This document shows, piece after piece, positions 738 through 10,854 of a stretch of DNA of 45,628 nt. A program made the translations under genes and the position numbers. The stretch is taken from positions 1 through 45,628 of the IMG/VR virus record IMGVR_UViG_3300046167_000068. One strand, 5' to 3'. The notes under the pieces were generated by a model. The model was not told the origin of the DNA and searched no databases. It saw nothing but the letters and a program-made list of their open reading frames with translations. Within the stretch, counting starts at the first letter, position 1. Each line of letters begins with the position of its first letter. This stretch comes from a virus.

Positions 738-2420
738 ATGAGCTATGAAATTAGAATTGTGAATAGGGAGTTAGCTAATAACTCTCAGTTTATACCTGAT
801 AATGTGCAACACTTGGCGTTGATACCTGATTACAAACCCTTCAGTGTTGATGATGACGACATGATCATCGAGTTCAATACACCTACAGGTGCTTTCATTG
901 AGGTTGGTGATGTCAAATTCAGAATTAGTTTTGGCCACGACCCACAGTCAAATGGGTTTGTGGTCAAGCGTATCTTGGATAGTAAACACAGTGACCCTGT
1001 CATACAAGCATGGGGTGACTGGACATTACCTGCAAGGCAACCTGATGGTGCTTTGCATCAATGGTTGTCAGAGAACATAGGGTACGTACACAACTCTACC
1101 TTAGAGATAAACGCTTTACCTCATAGGTTATCTTTGTTTGCACCTATACGTTCTAAGAGAAGGCATGGTTATATTAGTATCTATCAGAACAGTGATAAGT
1201 ATATAGCTGATCTACATACGCCTATGAAGCCTGGAAAAGCTATATCTACTATAGCACCAGAGCTAGACAACAAGACTGTTGATAGGCTAGTCACTGAATT
1301 TCTTGATGCCTTTGCACACAGAGAGTACACAGTCAAAACGTCCAGTAAGCCTGATGACTTTCGTAAGGTGTATACAGGTAAGATGGTGGGTACACAGAAT
1401 GTAAATACTACAGGTACTTACAAGTCACTAGCGTCTAGTTGTATGAGGTATACCTTTGATGATGGGGATGGTCCGATGAACCTACCTATACATCCAACCG
1501 AGGTGTATGGTTCTGGTGATTTCAATATTATATGGGTTGAAGATGCTAGGGGTTTCATAGGTGGTCGTGTCGTTGTCTACATGAAACATGACTCAGGTAT
1601 ACCACAACCATCTTGTGTTTATGGGGCTTGTCAGCAAGCATTAGATATGCTAAAAGATCATCTGGATAGTATAGATGCTTGTGATGTCTATGACTCTGAT
1701 TGGACAGGCGCTAGACTATCAGCTATCAAAGACTATGATACTCAGGCTTACATCGGCCCATACCTAGACCTAGAGCCTAGATCTTTAGACCCTCAAATAT
1801 TACCTGATGGTACTAAAGACAGTGAGGGTAATCCTAACACTAAAGAATACCTAGTTATAGGTTGTGGTGAACTTGATGGTAATGGTTACCAAGGCATATA
1901 CAGTGACGATATTCATCGTTGCTACAACTGTGAAGAGAATGTGCATGAAGATGAGTCACGTTACTCTGAGTACACAGGTAATGTATACTGTGACTGTTGC
2001 TTTCACGATGAACACTTCTATTGCGATTGGTCTGATGAGTACTATCACAATGACCAGCACATATGCGTATGGTATACTACTAGCGATGGTAGTAGAAGAT
2101 ATCATGATGTTGCAGAAGGTTGTGATGGTTATACATGGTGTGAACGTGAGGGTGAGTACTGGGATTCTGATGAGGTAATATATGTAGAGTCTGAGGATTC
2201 ATTTGTATCTCCCCCATTGTTTGAAGCACAATACTTTTGTTCTGATTGGGATGGAGAAGTGTACCACAATGATCAGATGGTTAGTACTATTGAAGATGAG
2301 ACTGTAGCTAAAGATGAAATAGATGGTCACAACTATAATAGTGATAAATATAAATATGTAAAGAATGACTTCGGTATATACATGAAGTCTTATGAAAAGG
2401 AAAACAATAATGAAAAATAA
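738..2420 (+). CDS. Cys-rich early protein with zinc-finger-like repeats, unknown function
   Basis: A 560-residue acidic protein with a good ribosome site (AAAGGAAT) before ATG 738. Residues 1-380 are mixed alpha/beta with an SSCMRY motif near 234 and a VYGSGDFNIIW stretch. The C-terminal third (about 390-540) is rich in Cys, Tyr, Trp and Asp. It holds CYNC (395-398) and CDCC (418-421) pairs, followed by several degenerate units resembling CDWSDEYYHNDQ and CSDWDGEVYHNDQ. This looks like tandem zinc-ribbon or treble-clef units, the later ones having lost part of the Cys set. Large proteins with a similar tail occur in other tailed phages, but I cannot assign a role. Its end overlaps the peptidase gene by 11 bases. 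Confidence 0.75.
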   Translation: MSYEIRIVNRELANNSQFIPDNVQHLALIPDYKPFSVDDDDMIIEFNTPTGAFIEVGDVKFRISFGHDPQSNGFVVKRILDSKHSDPVIQAWGDWTLPARQPDGALHQWLSENIGYVHNSTLEINALPHRLSLFAPIRSKRRHGYISIYQNSDKYIADLHTPMKPGKAISTIAPELDNKTVDRLVTEFLDAFAHREYTVKTSSKPDDFRKVYTGKMVGTQNVNTTGTYKSLASSCMRYTFDDGDGPMNLPIHPTEVYGSGDFNIIWVEDARGFIGGRVVVYMKHDSGIPQPSCVYGACQQALDMLKDHLDSIDACDVYDSDWTGARLSAIKDYDTQAYIGPYLDLEPRSLDPQILPDGTKDSEGNPNTKEYLVIGCGELDGNGYQGIYSDDIHRCYNCEENVHEDESRYSEYTGNVYCDCCFHDEHFYCDWSDEYYHNDQHICVWYTTSDGSRRYHDVAEGCDGYTWCEREGEYWDSDEVIYVESEDSFVSPPLFEAQYFCSDWDGEVYHNDQMVSTIEDETVAKDEIDGHNYNSDKYKYVKNDFGIYMKSYEKENNNEK

Positions 2421-3360
2421 TCTAGTAGATATGTTGCAGTACATGCGACCTGAAGGTGCTAAGACACAGAAAGAATTCTGTCTTGAGTATCTCGAACCTG
2501 TGTTTGGTAAGCCTGACCCCTATGGTAATTACATATGCCAAGTTGGTGTTAAGCCACGTCTATGCTTTACGGCACACCACGACACAGTACACAAGGCTGA
2601 GGGTATGCAGAAGGTTGTTGTATCTAACAACATAATATCTGTAGCTGACCCCAAGGTATCAAGCTGTCTAGGTGCTGACTGTACCACAGGCATATGGCTT
2701 ATACTCAAGATGATTGATGCAGGTGTAGAGGGTACATACGTAGTCCATGCAGCTGAAGAGATAGGTTGTCAGGGTAGTAAGGCACTAGTCTATGACAATC
2801 CACCTTGGTTAGATCATACTGATGCTGTTATATCTTTCGACAGGTATGGTACTAAGTCTGTAATCACACACCAGATGGGTATGCGTACTGCATCTAACAA
2901 GTTTGCACAGTCCTTTGCTACCGCACTCAGTATGCCACAGTTAGTAGCCGATGATGGTGGTTCTTACACAGACAGCAATGAGTATGCTCATGTAGTACCT
3001 GAGTGTACTAACATCAGTGTGGGTTACTACAATCAACATACAGCTAAAGAGACACAAGATATGTCTTATGCAGAGTTGTTACTCAGTAGTTTGTTACAAG
3101 CTGACTGGACAAAGATTGTCATTGATCGTGACCCTACAGTACAAGAGTGTATCTATACTAAGTATGCGCTCAATGATGACTACTATTACTCTCACAACCC
3201 TGATGCTACAGAAGAACTCGTCAACCTAGTGTTAGATTACCCTGATAGGATTGCTGATATGCTGGCTACCTATGGTTATACTGCTGAAGAGATCATGAGA
3301 GAGTGTAACATCTCACCTGATTACTTCGTCAATGACTATGTAGCTACTCGTTATATGTGA
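2410..3360 (+). CDS. M28/M20-clan metallopeptidase-like protein
   Basis: A 316-residue protein. ATG 2410 is preferred over 2392 because AAAAGGA lies 8 bases upstream; it overlaps the previous stop. Every metal-ligand position of di-zinc exopeptidases of clan MH can be seen: HHD at 56-58 (His57-x-Asp type), the bridging Asp90 in LGADCTTG, the catalytic/ligand pair Glu116-Glu117, Asp144 in SFDRYG, and His210 in NQHTAKE. Cys91 replaces the second Asp often found in GADD. It therefore most likely hydrolyses small peptides or amino-acid conjugates in the cytoplasm; no signal peptide is present. The phage role is unknown, perhaps peptide scavenging or disarming a host factor (inference). Confidence 0.8.
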   Translation: MKNNLVDMLQYMRPEGAKTQKEFCLEYLEPVFGKPDPYGNYICQVGVKPRLCFTAHHDTVHKAEGMQKVVVSNNIISVADPKVSSCLGADCTTGIWLILKMIDAGVEGTYVVHAAEEIGCQGSKALVYDNPPWLDHTDAVISFDRYGTKSVITHQMGMRTASNKFAQSFATALSMPQLVADDGGSYTDSNEYAHVVPECTNISVGYYNQHTAKETQDMSYAELLLSSLLQADWTKIVIDRDPTVQECIYTKYALNDDYYYSHNPDATEELVNLVLDYPDRIADMLATYGYTAEEIMRECNISPDYFVNDYVATRYM

Positions 3361-3371
3361 CACGTTGTCAC
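3357..3371. promoter_or_regulatory. 15-bp inverted repeat at the peptidase stop codon
   Basis: GTGACACGTTGTCAC has perfect 6-bp arms (GTGACA/TGTCAC) around CGT and spans the TGA stop of the peptidase gene. There is no following T-tract, so it is not an intrinsic terminator. It could be a repressor or recombinase site given the integrase 120 bp downstream. Function is not established. Confidence 0.3.
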
Positions 3372-3377
3372 AGAGGG

Positions 3378-3405
3378 TTGATTAATTCTAATTAATATGT
3401 ATTTT
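3378..3405 (+). promoter_or_regulatory. Possible weak promoter for integrase
   Basis: A TTGATT hexamer at 3378-3383, 16 bases, then TATTTT (about 3400-3405), in very AT-rich sequence upstream of the integrase. Both boxes match the sigma70 consensus only in part. The iterated palindromes begin right after it, the position expected of an operator or of arm-type integrase sites. Low certainty. Confidence 0.25.
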
Positions 3406-3409
3406 ATAG

Positions 3410-3484
3410 TACTTAAAGTATACTTAAGGTTACTTTAAGTTTACTATTAATATCTATTATTAATTAATAATAATACTTAAAGTA
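3410..3484. repeat. Four copies of an 11-bp palindromic repeat upstream of integrase
   Basis: The unit TACTTAAAGTA, a perfect odd-length palindrome, occurs at 3410-3420 and 3474-3484. Degenerate copies lie between: TACTTAAGGTT at 3421-3431 and TACTTTAAGTT at 3431-3441. The first three are spaced 10-11 bp, so they lie on the same face of the helix. The array fills the 133-bp gap before the integrase start at 3494, otherwise only AT-rich sequence. This is the layout of operator sites or of arm-type integrase/excisionase binding sites. No tRNA 3' end that could mark attP was recognised. Confidence 0.55.
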
Positions 3485-3493
3485 AGGAAAGAT

Positions 3494-4582
3494 ATGAAGT
3501 ATACAACTAAGACTAGTCGTAAGAACGGCAGTACGTCTTGGGTATTTAGACCACCTCAAGACGTAGTGTCAGCAGGTATAGTTAAGTCTCAGACATTTAG
3601 AGATGGTAGAACTGCAAGGGTAGAGATACCAAAGCTATTAGATAAGATAGATGCCTTTCGTAAAGGTGAGTTAGTAGCAGGTGATATAGGTAGGTTATCA
3701 AACCTAAATCAAATAGTAGGTTACTACTTTAAAACCAAACACTTTAATTCTTTGTCGCCCAATACCCAAGATAACTATACCCACAATCTCAAGTGTATCT
3801 GTCGTACAGAAATATATGGTAAAGAGTTTGGTAGTTTTAGAATTGATAGAGTTACAACTCCAGTATGTACTGAAGCCTATGATACTTGGGAAGAAAATGT
3901 AAGTACTAACACAGCCAATGAGTATAGTAGGTCTCTATCTATGATCATGAATTACTGTCGTTCATTAGGCATTGTTAACAACAACCCTGTAACTCATGTT
4001 AATAAGAGAACTCATGAGACACGTTCAACTACATGGAATAATGAACAGGTTGAGAAGTTCTGTGATGTAGCCTTCTCAGATTTTAAGTTTAGAAACATAG
4101 GCCTTTGTGTTCTGATGGCTTATGAGTGGGCGCAAAGACCTATTGATATCTACACTCTCAAGTGGGACAACATACATTTTGATATCAACATGGTAAAGAT
4201 ACGTCAAAGTAAACGTGGTGCTACAGTTGAGCTACCATTAGAAGAACCTTTGACTTCCATGTTACTACAACAGAAAGGTGACTGGGACTTCCAAGAATAT
4301 GTAGTACCCTTTCAGAGGCCTTCAGATGGGGCATACAGGGCGTTTGACCATGCCTCTGCAGGTGTACTAGTCAGACAGATTAAGGAGCTGTCAGGACTAC
4401 CTTCTGATCTACGTGTGGGTGATCTTAGAAAGACAGCCATCAACCAGATGATTGACAGTGAGATAGACCACCTTGCAATCATGTCTGTTACAGGGCATAA
4501 GAATGTGGCAAGTCTTAACCCATATGTTAAACACAATTTAAAAGCGGCTAAGTCTGCATTGAGTAGGAGAAGTAAGGAATGA
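3494..4582 (+). CDS. int: Tyrosine recombinase / phage integrase
   Basis: A 362-residue site-specific recombinase that would insert and excise the phage genome. Residues about 65-165 look like the SAM-like core-binding domain, and about 180-355 the catalytic domain. Catalytic residues visible are Arg215 (EWAQRPID), Lys240 in the beta-hairpin, Arg312 (GDLRKTA), His335 (TGHKN) and nucleophile Tyr344 (NPYVKH). The usual first His of the HxxR box is Asp310 here. Length is normal for this family. The start at 3494 has AAGGAAAG upstream and follows the palindromic repeat array. The stop overlaps the next gene by ATGA. Its presence argues for lysogeny, although no repressor gene was recognised in the window. 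Confidence 0.93.
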   Translation: MKYTTKTSRKNGSTSWVFRPPQDVVSAGIVKSQTFRDGRTARVEIPKLLDKIDAFRKGELVAGDIGRLSNLNQIVGYYFKTKHFNSLSPNTQDNYTHNLKCICRTEIYGKEFGSFRIDRVTTPVCTEAYDTWEENVSTNTANEYSRSLSMIMNYCRSLGIVNNNPVTHVNKRTHETRSTTWNNEQVEKFCDVAFSDFKFRNIGLCVLMAYEWAQRPIDIYTLKWDNIHFDINMVKIRQSKRGATVELPLEEPLTSMLLQQKGDWDFQEYVVPFQRPSDGAYRAFDHASAGVLVRQIKELSGLPSDLRVGDLRKTAINQMIDSEIDHLAIMSVTGHKNVASLNPYVKHNLKAAKSALSRRSKE

Positions 4583-5361
4583 TAATTGCATGGTGGAGTG
4601 CTGGTGTAACTAGTGCAGTGGCAACCAAGTTAGCCATAAATGAATTTGGTATTGATAATGTTATGCCTATATATTTTAAGATAGATAGTGCGCATGAAGA
4701 TAATGTTAGGTTCAAGTCTGAATGTGAGGAGTGGTATGGTAAAGAAATAGAAACATATCAATCCGAGAAACATAAAGATCAGTTTGAAGTTATAGTCAAC
4801 GATAAATATGTGAATGGCCCAGGTGGTGCAAGGTGTACGCTTGTGCTCAAGAAAAGGGTTAGGCAAAAAATTGAACGTGAACTCGACTACGATGGGCAAG
4901 TCTTTGGCTTTGAATATAGTAAGAAAGAAGTTAATAGAGCTATAAGGTTCAGTGAACAATACCCTTCAGCTAAACCCCTATTCCCTTTGATAGAACACAA
5001 AATGAATAAGCCTGAGTGTTTATACTATTTAGAAGATGCAGGTATTGAAAGACCTGAGATGTATAAGTTAGGTTATAAGAATAATAACTGTATTGGCTGT
5101 GTCAAAGGTGGTGCAGGGTACTGGAATAAAATACGTGTTGATTTCCCTGAGTCCTTTCAGAAGATGTCCGAAGCAGAAAGAATTGTAGGACACTCATGCT
5201 TACGTGGTACATTCCTTGATGAGCTTGATCCAGACAAAGGACACAAACAAAAAATTATAATGCCTGATTGTGGTAACTTTTGTGACCTTGAGTTCGAAGA
5301 CATACTTCACCCAAAGGTAGATGAGATACTTGATGAACCAACTAAACTAAGAAAGATATGA
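4579..5361 (+). CDS. PP-loop ATPase, phosphoadenosine phosphosulfate reductase-like
   Basis: A 260-residue member of the adenine nucleotide alpha-hydrolase/PAPS-reductase superfamily. A PP-loop lies at the very N-terminus (WWSAGVTSA, residues 5-13), a variant of SGGxDS with Ala and Thr substitutions. Conserved cysteines occur at 86 (GARCT), 171/174 (CIGC), 207 and 231/235 (CGNFC), suggesting metal or Fe-S binding or sulfur transfer. Phage proteins of this type are usually annotated PAPS reductase; the real substrate is unknown and could be nucleic-acid or nucleotide thiolation rather than sulfate assimilation. It is translationally coupled to the integrase (ATGA) and precedes a small gene and thyX. 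Confidence 0.75.
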   Translation: MIIAWWSAGVTSAVATKLAINEFGIDNVMPIYFKIDSAHEDNVRFKSECEEWYGKEIETYQSEKHKDQFEVIVNDKYVNGPGGARCTLVLKKRVRQKIERELDYDGQVFGFEYSKKEVNRAIRFSEQYPSAKPLFPLIEHKMNKPECLYYLEDAGIERPEMYKLGYKNNNCIGCVKGGAGYWNKIRVDFPESFQKMSEAERIVGHSCLRGTFLDELDPDKGHKQKIIMPDCGNFCDLEFEDILHPKVDEILDEPTKLRKI

Positions 5362-6209: not shown

Positions 6210-6441
6210 ATTTGAAAAAGATTATTCTGTCGTTACTAGTATGGATGAACAGAATAACTTTGATGATATTGAAATGTATCTTGAGAACAATGGTGTTGTT
6301 TTCTTAAGACAATACGTAGAAGAAATAGACACACACCAGGTGATTGAAATATCCTATAAACAATTACTTGACTTGTGGTCTTCCATGAGGCAGACTGAAG
6401 GCCTATTTAAACTAGAACTAATCGGAAAGGAAAAACGATGA
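6196..6441 (+). CDS. Small acidic protein of unknown function
   Basis: An 81-residue acidic protein that begins inside the end of thyX (14-base overlap) and overlaps the next gene by 4 bases (ATGA). It is predicted alpha/beta, with no Cys and no membrane segment. No family recognised. Tight overlap on both sides supports that it is expressed. Confidence 0.55.
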   Translation: MFTVEFEKDYSVVTSMDEQNNFDDIEMYLENNGVVFLRQYVEEIDTHQVIEISYKQLLDLWSSMRQTEGLFKLELIGKEKR

Positions 6442-6836
6442 GTAAATCACAACATGAATTAATTATGACACACCTTAGAACAACTAAGGGTATTACAGTA
6501 CGTGAGGCTATGATAGATTATAGCATCAGTTGCTTAACCAAACGTATACAAGAGCTACGTAAGCTTGGTCACGACATACTTAGTGTCAAGAAGAAGCACC
6601 CTGTTACAGGTCAACGTTATGTACGTTACGTATTGCAAGGGGAAGATGTCATGACACTATATCTTTGGCCACCTGTCATCATGTACCTACTAGGTATGAT
6701 GCTAGTCATAGGTATGTTTGAATCAATGAATGATGACAATAAAGGTACATATAAGCTAGCTATTCTCTGGCCTTTTGTTTCAATCATGTTTATATATGAG
6801 ATGATGAGGGATATAATTAATGGCGATAGGAGATAA
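6438..6836 (+). CDS. HTH-domain protein fused to a two-helix membrane tail
   Basis: A 132-residue protein. Residues 5-66 look like a winged helix-turn-helix (a TTKGITVREAMIDY helix, then CLTKRIQELRKLGHDI as recognition helix, then a VTGQRYVRYVL wing), as seen in small phage HTH proteins. Residues 72-95 and about 103-125 are hydrophobic helices. A second ATG at 6651 (codon 72) carries a strong AAGGGGAA ribosome site 6 bases upstream, so a separate 61-residue membrane protein could be made from the same frame. The 3' end overlaps the primase-helicase gene by 17 bases. Confidence 0.65.
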   Translation: MSKSQHELIMTHLRTTKGITVREAMIDYSISCLTKRIQELRKLGHDILSVKKKHPVTGQRYVRYVLQGEDVMTLYLWPPVIMYLLGMMLVIGMFESMNDDNKGTYKLAILWPFVSIMFIYEMMRDIINGDRR

Positions 6837-8427
6837 CCCACACTTAGCTTGTCCGTATACAGATTGCGGTTCAAGCGATGCGTTTAATTGGAATGATGAT
6901 GGCTATGGTCAATGTCATTCTTGTAGTAGATCATATCCATCTAAGGATATGTCACAAACATATGATTGGGTCAAGCAGGAGTACCCTCTCAAGGAAAGGA
7001 GAAAGCCTATGGAAATACCCGTAACGGGTGGAACTTACAATGGTATCAGGTCTATTGACCCTGATGTTTGTGAGCTTTTTGGAATACAATTACAGACTGG
7101 TGATAAAGGTGAAGCAGTCAGGTATGCGTACAAGTACCCACACACAGTCAAGTACAGGCTAGTGTCAGACAAGTCTAAGACGTGGACTAAAGATAGAGGT
7201 ATGGGTATGAATCATTTGTTTGGCCCAGAGTTTAACTCAGGCTCAAGCAAACGTATCTACCTTACTGAAGGTGAGTTTGATGCGGCAAGTCTATACCAAA
7301 TACTAGGTAAGACATTTCCAGTTAAGTCACTACCTAGTGCATCTATTGGTGAGAAGTTTATCAAGCACAATCATATCTACTTATCCTCATTCAAAGAGAT
7401 CATCTATGCAGGTGAGCTTGATGATGCAGGACGTAGAGCTGCAGATAAACTATACTCTGCATTCCCTGATAAGTTCTGGTATGTACCAATGTCTAAGCAC
7501 AAAGATGCCAATGACTTCTTACAGTCAGGTGATGGTGATGATCTAATGTGGGCGGCACGTAAGCCTCAACGTTATTCACCAGAGAACTTCTTCTGTTCTG
7601 ATCAAGATGTAGAAGATGCTATCCTTAATGAGAACCCATATGAGTATGTACCTACAGGTCATACAGGTCTTGATGATAAGATCAGAGGTATGGTCAAAGG
7701 TGGTATCACATTCATCAAAGCACCAAGAGGTACTGGTAAGACAGAGGTGATACGTTACTTCGAGACAGGCCTACTGCGTGACGAAGAGAGCCGTGTTGCT
7801 TTACTACACATGGAAGAGATGAAGTCTACTACCTATAGATCAATGGCTACATATCAACTAGGTGTCAACGTCAGGACTAAAGATGATGCTAAAGAAAACA
7901 ATGTGTCTGAACAAGAAGTTATCACCGCCGCTAAGGAGATGACTAAAGGTGAACGTACTATTATCTTTGAGATGATGTCGCATGATGATCCACTAAAGCT
8001 ACTTGATTACATACGTCTTGCGGCTACTGTGTATGGTGCAGGGTTTATATTCATTGACCATGTTCAACGTCTTGCTTATCTATCTAGCTCAGGTGTTGAT
8101 GGTGCTACAAGTGTACTTACTACGTTAGGTTCACGAGCCGCACAGTTAGCCAAGGAGTTAAACATTGGTGTGATCTTTATATCACAGGTGAATGATGATG
8201 GACGTACAAAGTATGCGGCTTCACTAGAAGAAGAAGCAATCATTTGTATTAAGATTGAACGTGATGTCGAGACTGAAGATGAGGTGCTACAAAATACCAC
8301 AACCTTTATTGTTGACAAGAACAGACCATTCGCTAAGTTAGGTAATGCAGGTTCAGTATATTATGATCCAGACACTACGATCTTATCTGAAGATGCACCA
8401 TATAATAGGAGTGACATTGCGGCATGA
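6820..8427 (+). CDS. T7 gp4-like DNA primase-helicase
   Basis: A 535-residue bifunctional replication protein. An N-terminal zinc-binding domain has Cys11, Cys16, Cys32 and Cys35. A TOPRIM primase core follows with the Glu in YLTEGEFDAAS (about 150-152) and the acidic pair in AGELDDAGRR (about 199-202). A RecA-like helicase domain carries Walker A APRGTGKT (about 301-308), Walker B GFIFIDHVQRL, and a later ISQVNDDGRTKYAAS segment. It would unwind the fork 5'-3' and make primers for the neighbouring family A polymerase. Slightly shorter than T7 gp4 (566). The start overlaps the HTH gene, and the stop overlaps the polymerase start by ATGA. Confidence 0.93.
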   Translation: MAIGDNPHLACPYTDCGSSDAFNWNDDGYGQCHSCSRSYPSKDMSQTYDWVKQEYPLKERRKPMEIPVTGGTYNGIRSIDPDVCELFGIQLQTGDKGEAVRYAYKYPHTVKYRLVSDKSKTWTKDRGMGMNHLFGPEFNSGSSKRIYLTEGEFDAASLYQILGKTFPVKSLPSASIGEKFIKHNHIYLSSFKEIIYAGELDDAGRRAADKLYSAFPDKFWYVPMSKHKDANDFLQSGDGDDLMWAARKPQRYSPENFFCSDQDVEDAILNENPYEYVPTGHTGLDDKIRGMVKGGITFIKAPRGTGKTEVIRYFETGLLRDEESRVALLHMEEMKSTTYRSMATYQLGVNVRTKDDAKENNVSEQEVITAAKEMTKGERTIIFEMMSHDDPLKLLDYIRLAATVYGAGFIFIDHVQRLAYLSSSGVDGATSVLTTLGSRAAQLAKELNIGVIFISQVNDDGRTKYAASLEEEAIICIKIERDVETEDEVLQNTTTFIVDKNRPFAKLGNAGSVYYDPDTTILSEDAPYNRSDIAA

Positions 8428-10265: not shown

Positions 10266-10283
10266 CAGAAATGGAGTCCAATT

Positions 10284-10787
10284 ATGGCAACAAGAAGATT
10301 AAAATTAACAGGTATAGGTGAGTGGGCAAAAGTATTTGCTGCTAACAGAGATATGCTAGGGTATGATGGTGTTTATAGAGAGTGCGATGGTGCATGTACT
10401 ATTGATGTCATCTTAGATGAAGAAAATTAAGCTGCACTTAAAGCATCTCGTTCTATTAAGAAGGGTAAGCCTGATCCAGAAGGAAGAGGACATATAATTA
10501 GATTTGTCCGTAAGTTTAATACAGGACGTGATTGGGACAGTGGAGCACCTGAAGTTGTTAAGTCAGATGATACTCCTTGGGACTATGACATAGATGGCAC
10601 TATAGGTAATGGTTCTACTGTGGAAGTATTACTATCAGTCTATGATACCAAGATGTCAGGTGTAGTTGGAACACGTTTAGATAAGGTTAAAGTCTTAGAG
10701 CATGTTAAATATGTTCGTGACGAGGGTGATTCTCCTCCACCTTCAACTGATTCTAAACCTGTGGCTGGGAACGAGGTACTGTTCTAA
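10284..10787 (+). pseudogene. T7 gp2.5-like ssDNA-binding protein interrupted by an in-frame TAA
   Basis: Translating from ATG 10284 (TGGAG upstream) gives 48 residues ending DEEN. Then comes TAA at 10428-10430, and the same frame continues for 118 more codons to TAA at 10785-10787. Both halves read like one phage ssDNA-binding protein: an N-terminal FAANRDMLGYDGVYRE part, then RSIKKGKPDPEGRG, TPWDYDIDGTIGNGST and an acidic C-terminal tail ending GNEVLF, as in gp2.5-type proteins. The family usually has Leu-Ala at the stop position, so a TTA-to-TAA change explains it. No good restart ATG lies just downstream. Either a real nonsense mutation or a base error; an SSB is normally essential. Confidence 0.8.
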
Positions 10788-10796
10788 GCACAACTT

Positions 10797-10839
10797 GTGG
10801 GGTAGGTGTTTCCTTTCCTTTCTTCCTACCCCACTTTTT
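10797..10839 (+). terminator. Intrinsic terminator after the ssDNA-binding gene
   Basis: A perfect 10-bp stem, GTGGGGTAGG (10797-10806) with CCTACCCCAC (10825-10834), an 18-base pyrimidine-rich loop and a TTTTT tract (10835-10839). It starts 9 bases after the ssDNA-binding stop and ends 15 bases before the next ATG, so it would lower or gate expression of the downstream nuclease genes. Confidence 0.85.
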
Positions 10840-10854
10840 AACTGAGGAGTTAAT

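Follow-up and report, generated by a model that had tools for sequence, protein, structure and literature searches.

Clustered palindromes at an integrase/replication promoter and, in relatives, at a late promoter are probable operator sites in a group of marine phages

The window analysed here is the whole of a 45.6-kb virus contig (IMGVR_UViG_3300046167_000068, 45,628 nt). Within it, four palindromes of the form ACTTWAAGT, each with at most one mismatch, lie in a 133-nt gap between a peptidase gene and an integrase gene. We consider it probable, with appreciable room for doubt, that this array represents the operator sites of a putative regulator, likely a repressor and probably encoded by the phage, that would control the integrase/replication operon and the late operons. 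The array is conserved among relatives and overlaps a promoter. Genomes for which both regions were in hand have two arrays, and the motif tends, with exceptions, to co-vary between the two arrays of one genome.

The sites occupy positions 3411 to 3419 (ACTTAAAGT), 3422 to 3430 (ACTTAAGGT, one mismatch), 3432 to 3440 (ACTTTAAGT) and 3475 to 3483 (ACTTAAAGT), and the first three follow each other at distances of 11 and 10 bp. Written as 11-mers, they are two exact copies of TACTTAAAGTA at 3410 and 3474, a minus-strand copy with one mismatch at 3431, and a copy with two mismatches at 3421. The original prediction of four palindromes in front of the integrase, three of them 10-11 bp apart, is borne out, since none of 5000 dinucleotide shuffles of the gap contained four or more sites at up to one mismatch (shuffle mean 0.28). 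Any other 133-nt stretch of the window holds two sites at most. At up to two mismatches, the count for the whole window is mildly raised (53, compared to a shuffle mean of 39.5, with 3 of 100 shuffles reaching it). A motif-free count of repeats in the gap is not above chance, because the gap has a GC content of only 21%, and the case therefore draws its strength from the relatives. The gap had also been called the only sizeable one in the early region. It is real, but the stretch from 10266 to 10854 likewise lacks long open reading frames on the coding strand; it holds small ones, of which the one at 10620-10787 is present in 30 of 31 compared loci.

The array belongs to a larger element, which consists of promoter-like hexamers, the left sites, an AT-rich dyad and the right site. 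It is bordered by the end of the M28-like peptidase gene (2392 to 3360, plus strand; PF04389, phrog_4191). A palindrome TGTGACA-CGT-TGTCACA (3356 to 3372) overlaps the peptidase stop codon and lies just upstream of the -35 position; a similar TGTGACA-N3-TGTCACA palindrome is found at the same spot in 21 of 43 non-redundant regions (among the matches listed). By eye, one is also seen near the late promoter of phage CRP-9. The -35-like hexamer TTGATT (3378 to 3383, plus strand), placed in agreement with the position of TTGA[CT] in relatives, is followed after a 16-bp spacer by a -10-like TATTTT (3400 to 3405, plus strand), which is weak in the window and was assigned from the relatives. Both hexamers are weak, and a generic promoter scan of the window missed them. 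Between the third and fourth sites is the AT-rich core (3441 to 3474), an imperfect dyad with overlapping palindrome arms at 3455-3465 and 3462-3472. A ribosome-binding-like AAGGAAAG (3484 to 3491, plus strand) precedes the start of the tyrosine integrase (3494 to 4582, plus strand; PF00589 with E 5.8e-15, phrog_1 with E 1.7e-31), the first gene after the array.

The window appears to come from a mosaic phage. Its polymerase is closest to that of roseophage CRP-6 (54%), its capsid to that of CRP-13 (87%), and its integrase to those of HMO-2011-type phages (at most 39%). To judge from these gene comparisons, this mix matches the recombinant 'group II' contigs described as combining CRP-6 replication with HMO-2011 morphogenesis modules (PMC8528129), and the hosts are therefore likely to be roseobacter-like.

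An integrase scan gave eight distinct loci of close relatives, seven of which reach upstream, and the array is kept in all seven. Loss of the repeats in relatives with the same integrase, which the original prediction had named as the observation that would speak against it, is thus not seen. In two loci (L005 and L006, integrase 96%), the spacer has changed, while the sites are retained, with one extra on the right. The wider family was drawn from the best 80 of 213 relatives in a polymerase scan and the best 80 of 189 in a peptidase scan. Among the matches listed, 118 loci that include the peptidase together with its downstream flank reduced to 46 non-redundant regions, made up of 43 regions and three named phages without the array. 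Sites at up to one mismatch number 123 in the 46 regions behind the peptidase, against 9.8 expected (among the matches listed). At least three sites are present in 30 of the 43 regions and none to two in 13, again among the matches listed. By eye, ten of the 13 carry drifted palindromes (ACCTTAAGGT in L112; ACTTAAGT in L136, L153, L154, L157 and L164; others in L072, L129, L145 and L172). L042 has a different inverted repeat, L175 has no palindrome that could be recognised by eye, and in L176/L074 the array is displaced by 0.9 kb further on.

The build of the element is regular. Among the matches listed, 46 of 55 neighbouring pairs of sites in the 30 regions with at least three sites are spaced by 10-12 bp; the left sites of these regions are mostly ACTTAAAGT (48 of 63) and their right sites mostly ACTTTAAGT (38 of 52). 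In 27 of 36 site-bearing regions, the first site is preceded by TTGA[CT] at a distance of 20-40 bp, compared to 4.8% in mononucleotide shuffles. By eye, the -10 of most of these 27 regions reads TATTTT, TATAAT or TATAAC, and the first site therefore overlaps or follows it.

Several neighbouring features deserve mention. Relatives of the peptidase are present in 21 of 22 array loci and in none of nine others, although the array loci were mostly picked via the peptidase. A 560-aa protein that adjoins the peptidase (738-3360 in the window for this stretch) lacks a Pfam or PHROG match, and has relatives in 19 of the 22 array loci and in none of the nine others compared. ARAGORN detected an intact tRNA-Arg(TCT) gene immediately after the array in 12 of 13 scanned loci (L140, L157, L153, L136, L131, L132, L164, L127, L122, L115, L118 and L130); in all of these except L140 it is followed by the integrase, and L120/L027 have a degraded tRNA. 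A micro-ORF ending in DDPHDD-x-THWIGK was seen by eye before the integrase of L036, L055, L113 and L117 and in CRP-6 (1240-1300). It reaches up to or into the start codon of the gene that follows, which suggests possible translational coupling.

A second array of similar build is found at the late promoter of relatives. A pattern scan of viral contigs returned 108 stretches, and the array set, after a further scan was added, contained 72 arrays that do not adjoin the peptidase. Most of these (59 of 72) are found no more than 500 bp upstream of one and the same 84-aa gene, with which the late/lysis block opens. All 29 non-redundant late regions have TTGACN-N16-18-TATAAT or TATAAC, with a perfect TATAAT in 27, compared to 4.2% in shuffles. 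The first site starts 30-36 bp from the beginning of the -35 hexamer in 19 of the 29 regions, usually just behind the -10. The window contig ends before the late region, so that the late array is documented in relatives, foremost in L209, the nearest one (integrase 99.7% identical), which has it at 7639-7733, with TTGACT-N16-TATAAT just upstream and an endolysin gene further down. Between the early and late operons of L209 (6192-7865) there is also a 1.4-kb AT-rich stretch without long open reading frames, and another TTGACA-TATAAC promoter-like pair occurs just before the late genes.

This leaves 13 arrays in places other than the flank of the peptidase or the region ahead of the late gene. 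The integrase side has four of them (L203, L221, L263 and L270), three resemble unrelated repeats by eye (L197, L198 and L214), and L239 and L282 form the remainder. Four arrays that are alike precede another gene (L193 at 12686, L231 at 560, L243 at 865 and L264 at 2874), and from their position they may mark a third kind of target. A stricter tandem pattern is absent from 18 of 28 records, including all seven named phages tested. In G001 and G002, phages of the group that lack the peptidase, there is no strict array, but inspection of both found a looser one at the late promoter, and the late genes that adjoin the late array are also present.

The two arrays of one genome tend to use the same word. 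In a set of 17 non-redundant genomes out of 30 pairs, the two arrays of a genome have more palindromic words in common than arrays of different genomes do (mean similarity 0.30 with the own partner, 0.16 with others), a difference reached in 5 of 5000 permutations, with relatedness reduced by de-duplication only. Thus, both arrays of L112 carry ACCTTAAGGT, both of L152 and L154 carry ACTTAAGT, and both of CRP-9 carry ACTAATAGT. The own late array is top-ranked with a real match in just four of the 17 genomes (L152, L121, L112 and CRP-9), because most genomes have the common ACTTAAAGT. No palindromic word is common to both arrays of L042, L162 and L072 in this test; by eye, the variants at the two arrays of L162 and L072 are alike, whereas L042 is a misfit.

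Cultured phages add to this. CRP-9 has the element before its thyX/primase-helicase/polymerase operon (5072-5270) and again before the late operon, upstream of 54902, and it keeps the build of the array with sites that contain no TTAA. It has no match to the window integrase, which suggests that the element may serve lytic timing as much as lysogeny. The late promoter of CRP-13 reads TTGACA...TATAAT-ACTTATAGT, and by eye the late side of CRP-1 has CACTTTAAGTG-like sites. With the looser tandem pattern, CRP-9 was the only one of five named phages with a second array, which was absent from CRP-13, CRP-1, CRP-3 and CRP-6. FZCC0023 is the recorded host strain of all three of CRP-9, CRP-13 and CRP-1, yet by eye their motifs differ. 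The simpler reading of different motifs in one host strain is that a phage factor, rather than a host factor, binds the sites.

Several similar palindromes at a promoter, the same sites at a second promoter of one genome (as seen in relatives) and a site specificity that co-varies between the promoters of one phage are all observed, as expected of a phage repressor/operator system. A DNA-binding regulator, probably of phage origin, would bind the roughly 9-bp palindromes, one helical turn apart, in left and right groups around the AT-rich dyad. Its sites lie across the -10 box of the presumed integrase/replication promoter or immediately behind it, and an array of like build stands at the start of the strong late promoter. 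Judged by this position, the regulator would most likely, when on its sites, obstruct RNA polymerase at the two promoters, perhaps with looping of the DNA, and replication and late genes would be held until it is removed or titrated. In phages with an integrase, the regulator might act in lysogeny, and the non-standard lysogeny switch that had been suggested for the window is possible.

Neither gene co-occurrence nor a fold search found the cognate regulator. The first-early 179-aa family (A3, pLDDT 83.6) and the first-late 84-aa protein (A4, pLDDT 77.7) have no structural match at E 0.001. The only widespread genes that track the peptidase-side array are those for the peptidase and the 560-aa protein, in a comparison biased by loci that were mostly chosen via the peptidase. 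The HTH_39 protein (6438-6836), which had been proposed as a binder, is unlikely to be the general one, because relatives occur in only 6 of the 22 array loci compared. Its open reading frame runs on into a membrane-like segment, the relative of which is a separate open reading frame in L058 (7225-7413).

An alternative that we regard as unlikely, though worth serious attention, is that the array acts as RNA. Once transcribed, it would form a hairpin at the 5'-end, which might stabilise the mRNA, serve as a cleavage site or, like the put RNAs of HK022, act on RNA polymerase. The array begins near the predicted transcript start of two operons, and in several relatives 20-30 bp of pairing is possible between its left and right arms. 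In 32 of 42 cases (p 1.6e-5), the arms of one genome complement each other better than arms combined from two genomes, an excess that is strongest in the inner 20 nt of the core (38 of 42, p 1.2e-7) and weaker in the outer part (29 of 42, p 0.02), with p values that ignore relatedness. Across 30 regions, the core folds better than shuffles on average (mean z -1.42), but it does so at p<0.05 in only 9 of the 30. The fold of the window element fails to reach significance (z -1.13, matched by 31 of 200 shuffles), and so does that of its core taken by itself (p 0.19). Moreover, pairing requires neither single sites that are palindromic nor their spacing of 10-12 bp (46 of 55). Plain operators have no need of complementary core halves, a feature that counts against the operator reading. 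The complementarity could stem from a hairpin function or from self-perfection of a quasi-palindrome, as quasi-palindromes tend to perfect themselves by template switching.

The element could also be a transcription-primed replication origin, made up of a promoter, an AT-rich dyad close to where the replication operon begins and the sites as initiator-binding repeats, which we judge to be improbable. The 21% GC gap does adjoin the replication genes, and the succession of promoter and AT-rich stretch is like that of the primary origin of T7. However, a like element is present at the late promoter, and the GC skew does not change sign lastingly around the site.

The original prediction had left the choice between operators and arm-type recombination sites, and only its first half is supported, by the conserved promoter overlap, the recurrence at the late promoter and the co-variation. 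An attP with arm-type integrase sites that flank a core appears highly improbable, despite a suggestive layout. The array directly precedes the integrase, and its groups of sites, for the most part inverted relative to each other, flank an inverted repeat that varies. In L074 it stays with the integrase, even though another gene separates it from the peptidase, and in 11 integrase-bearing regions it is adjoined by the tRNA-Arg gene, tRNA genes being a usual kind of att target. On the other hand, three of the 43 groups (18 loci) retain the array although no integrase was detected in them, and CRP-9 retains it too; in L032, L044 and L058, no integrase is among the open reading frames read between array and polymerase. 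It is also present with integrases from which the first 60-70 residues are missing (L036, L028 and L027). Conversely, 11 loci in which the integrase has the N-terminal domain and a different upstream gene have no such array in front (L068, L069, L070, L071, L073, L076, L077, L078, L083, L089 and L090). The second array at the late promoter does not fit an attP either, and no tRNA T-arm with a complete stem occurs in the window, although an attB other than a tRNA gene is possible. In CRP-3, with an integrase about 25% identical to that of the window, integration is reported to have been mapped to a tRNA-Met gene (PMC6918029), and att is about 1.7 kb downstream of the integrase; a tRNA-like stretch is found there (L018) at about 3195, between the printed primers 2829 and 3642. 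A search for prophages by integrase alignment in genome contigs gave five phage-like MAG contigs at 32-35%, but no prophage and no attB.

Binding by the host cell-cycle regulator CtrA, for which a TTAA-N7-TTAA consensus is described in other alphaproteobacterial phages (PMC9437464), is very hard to credit for the array. The window does have a TTAA-N7-TTAA-N7-TTAA triple at 3413-3438, its sole one (0 of 1000 gap shuffles), and near relatives retain it. Across relatives as a whole, however, the TTAA distances range from 9 to 13 bp and 11 is not favoured, the array of CRP-9 preserves its build although its sites contain no TTAA, and motifs differ by eye among phages of one host strain. CtrA cannot explain the array family; control of the window's own lineage by it is possible.

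We thus prefer to see the array as a set of operators. More tentatively, and with greater doubt than belief, the arrays may belong to a new class of switch, in which a fast-diverging phage regulator without a recognised fold would act on groups of sites around an AT dyad conserved in structure, at replication and late promoters. Such a switch, with many specificity groups in marine phages, would serve lytic timing and, where there is an integrase, lysogeny. The titles and opening parts of abstracts in the openly licensed literature yielded no paper that describes these arrays and no study of gene control in HMO-2011-type phages, and the terms promoter, repressor, palindrom- and intergenic do not occur in the main text of PMC8528129. 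HMO-2011-type phages are called dominant and widespread in the ocean (PMC9038755). As the group of the window has an HMO-2011-type capsid module, the paired arrays provide a sequence handle on their gene control. With the cultured pair CRP-9/FZCC0023, they make two questions testable, namely what times replication and late genes, and by what means members that have an integrase but no recognised repressor might maintain lysogeny.

Among known systems, the phages with CtrA sites (Brevundimonas phage Delta, the PhiCbk group and Pasto) share clustered TTAA sites in intergenic promoter regions with the phages considered here, but the TTAA-N7-TTAA spacing is not conserved in the latter; the former infect Alphaproteobacteria, whereas our host assignment is an inference (PMC9437464). 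Pasto has the peptidase gene in common (40%), without an array behind it. The relation to CRP-9/CRP-13-type roseophages is closer, with the same capsid module, a CRP-6-like polymerase and, in CRP-9, paired arrays. As with the stoperators of mycobacteriophage L5, where one repressor binds several sites scattered over the genome, a single repressor would act at several places, but the sites here are clustered at promoters. The immunity operators of lambda (OL/OR) and 434 are palindromic sites at two promoters per phage, with a specificity that differs between relatives. Here, too, several palindromic sites overlap two promoters and specificity varies among related phages. In contrast to lambda and 434, the sites flank an AT-rich dyad, the promoters are those of the integrase/replication and late operons, no CI-like gene was recognised, and the array is also found in phages without a detectable integrase.
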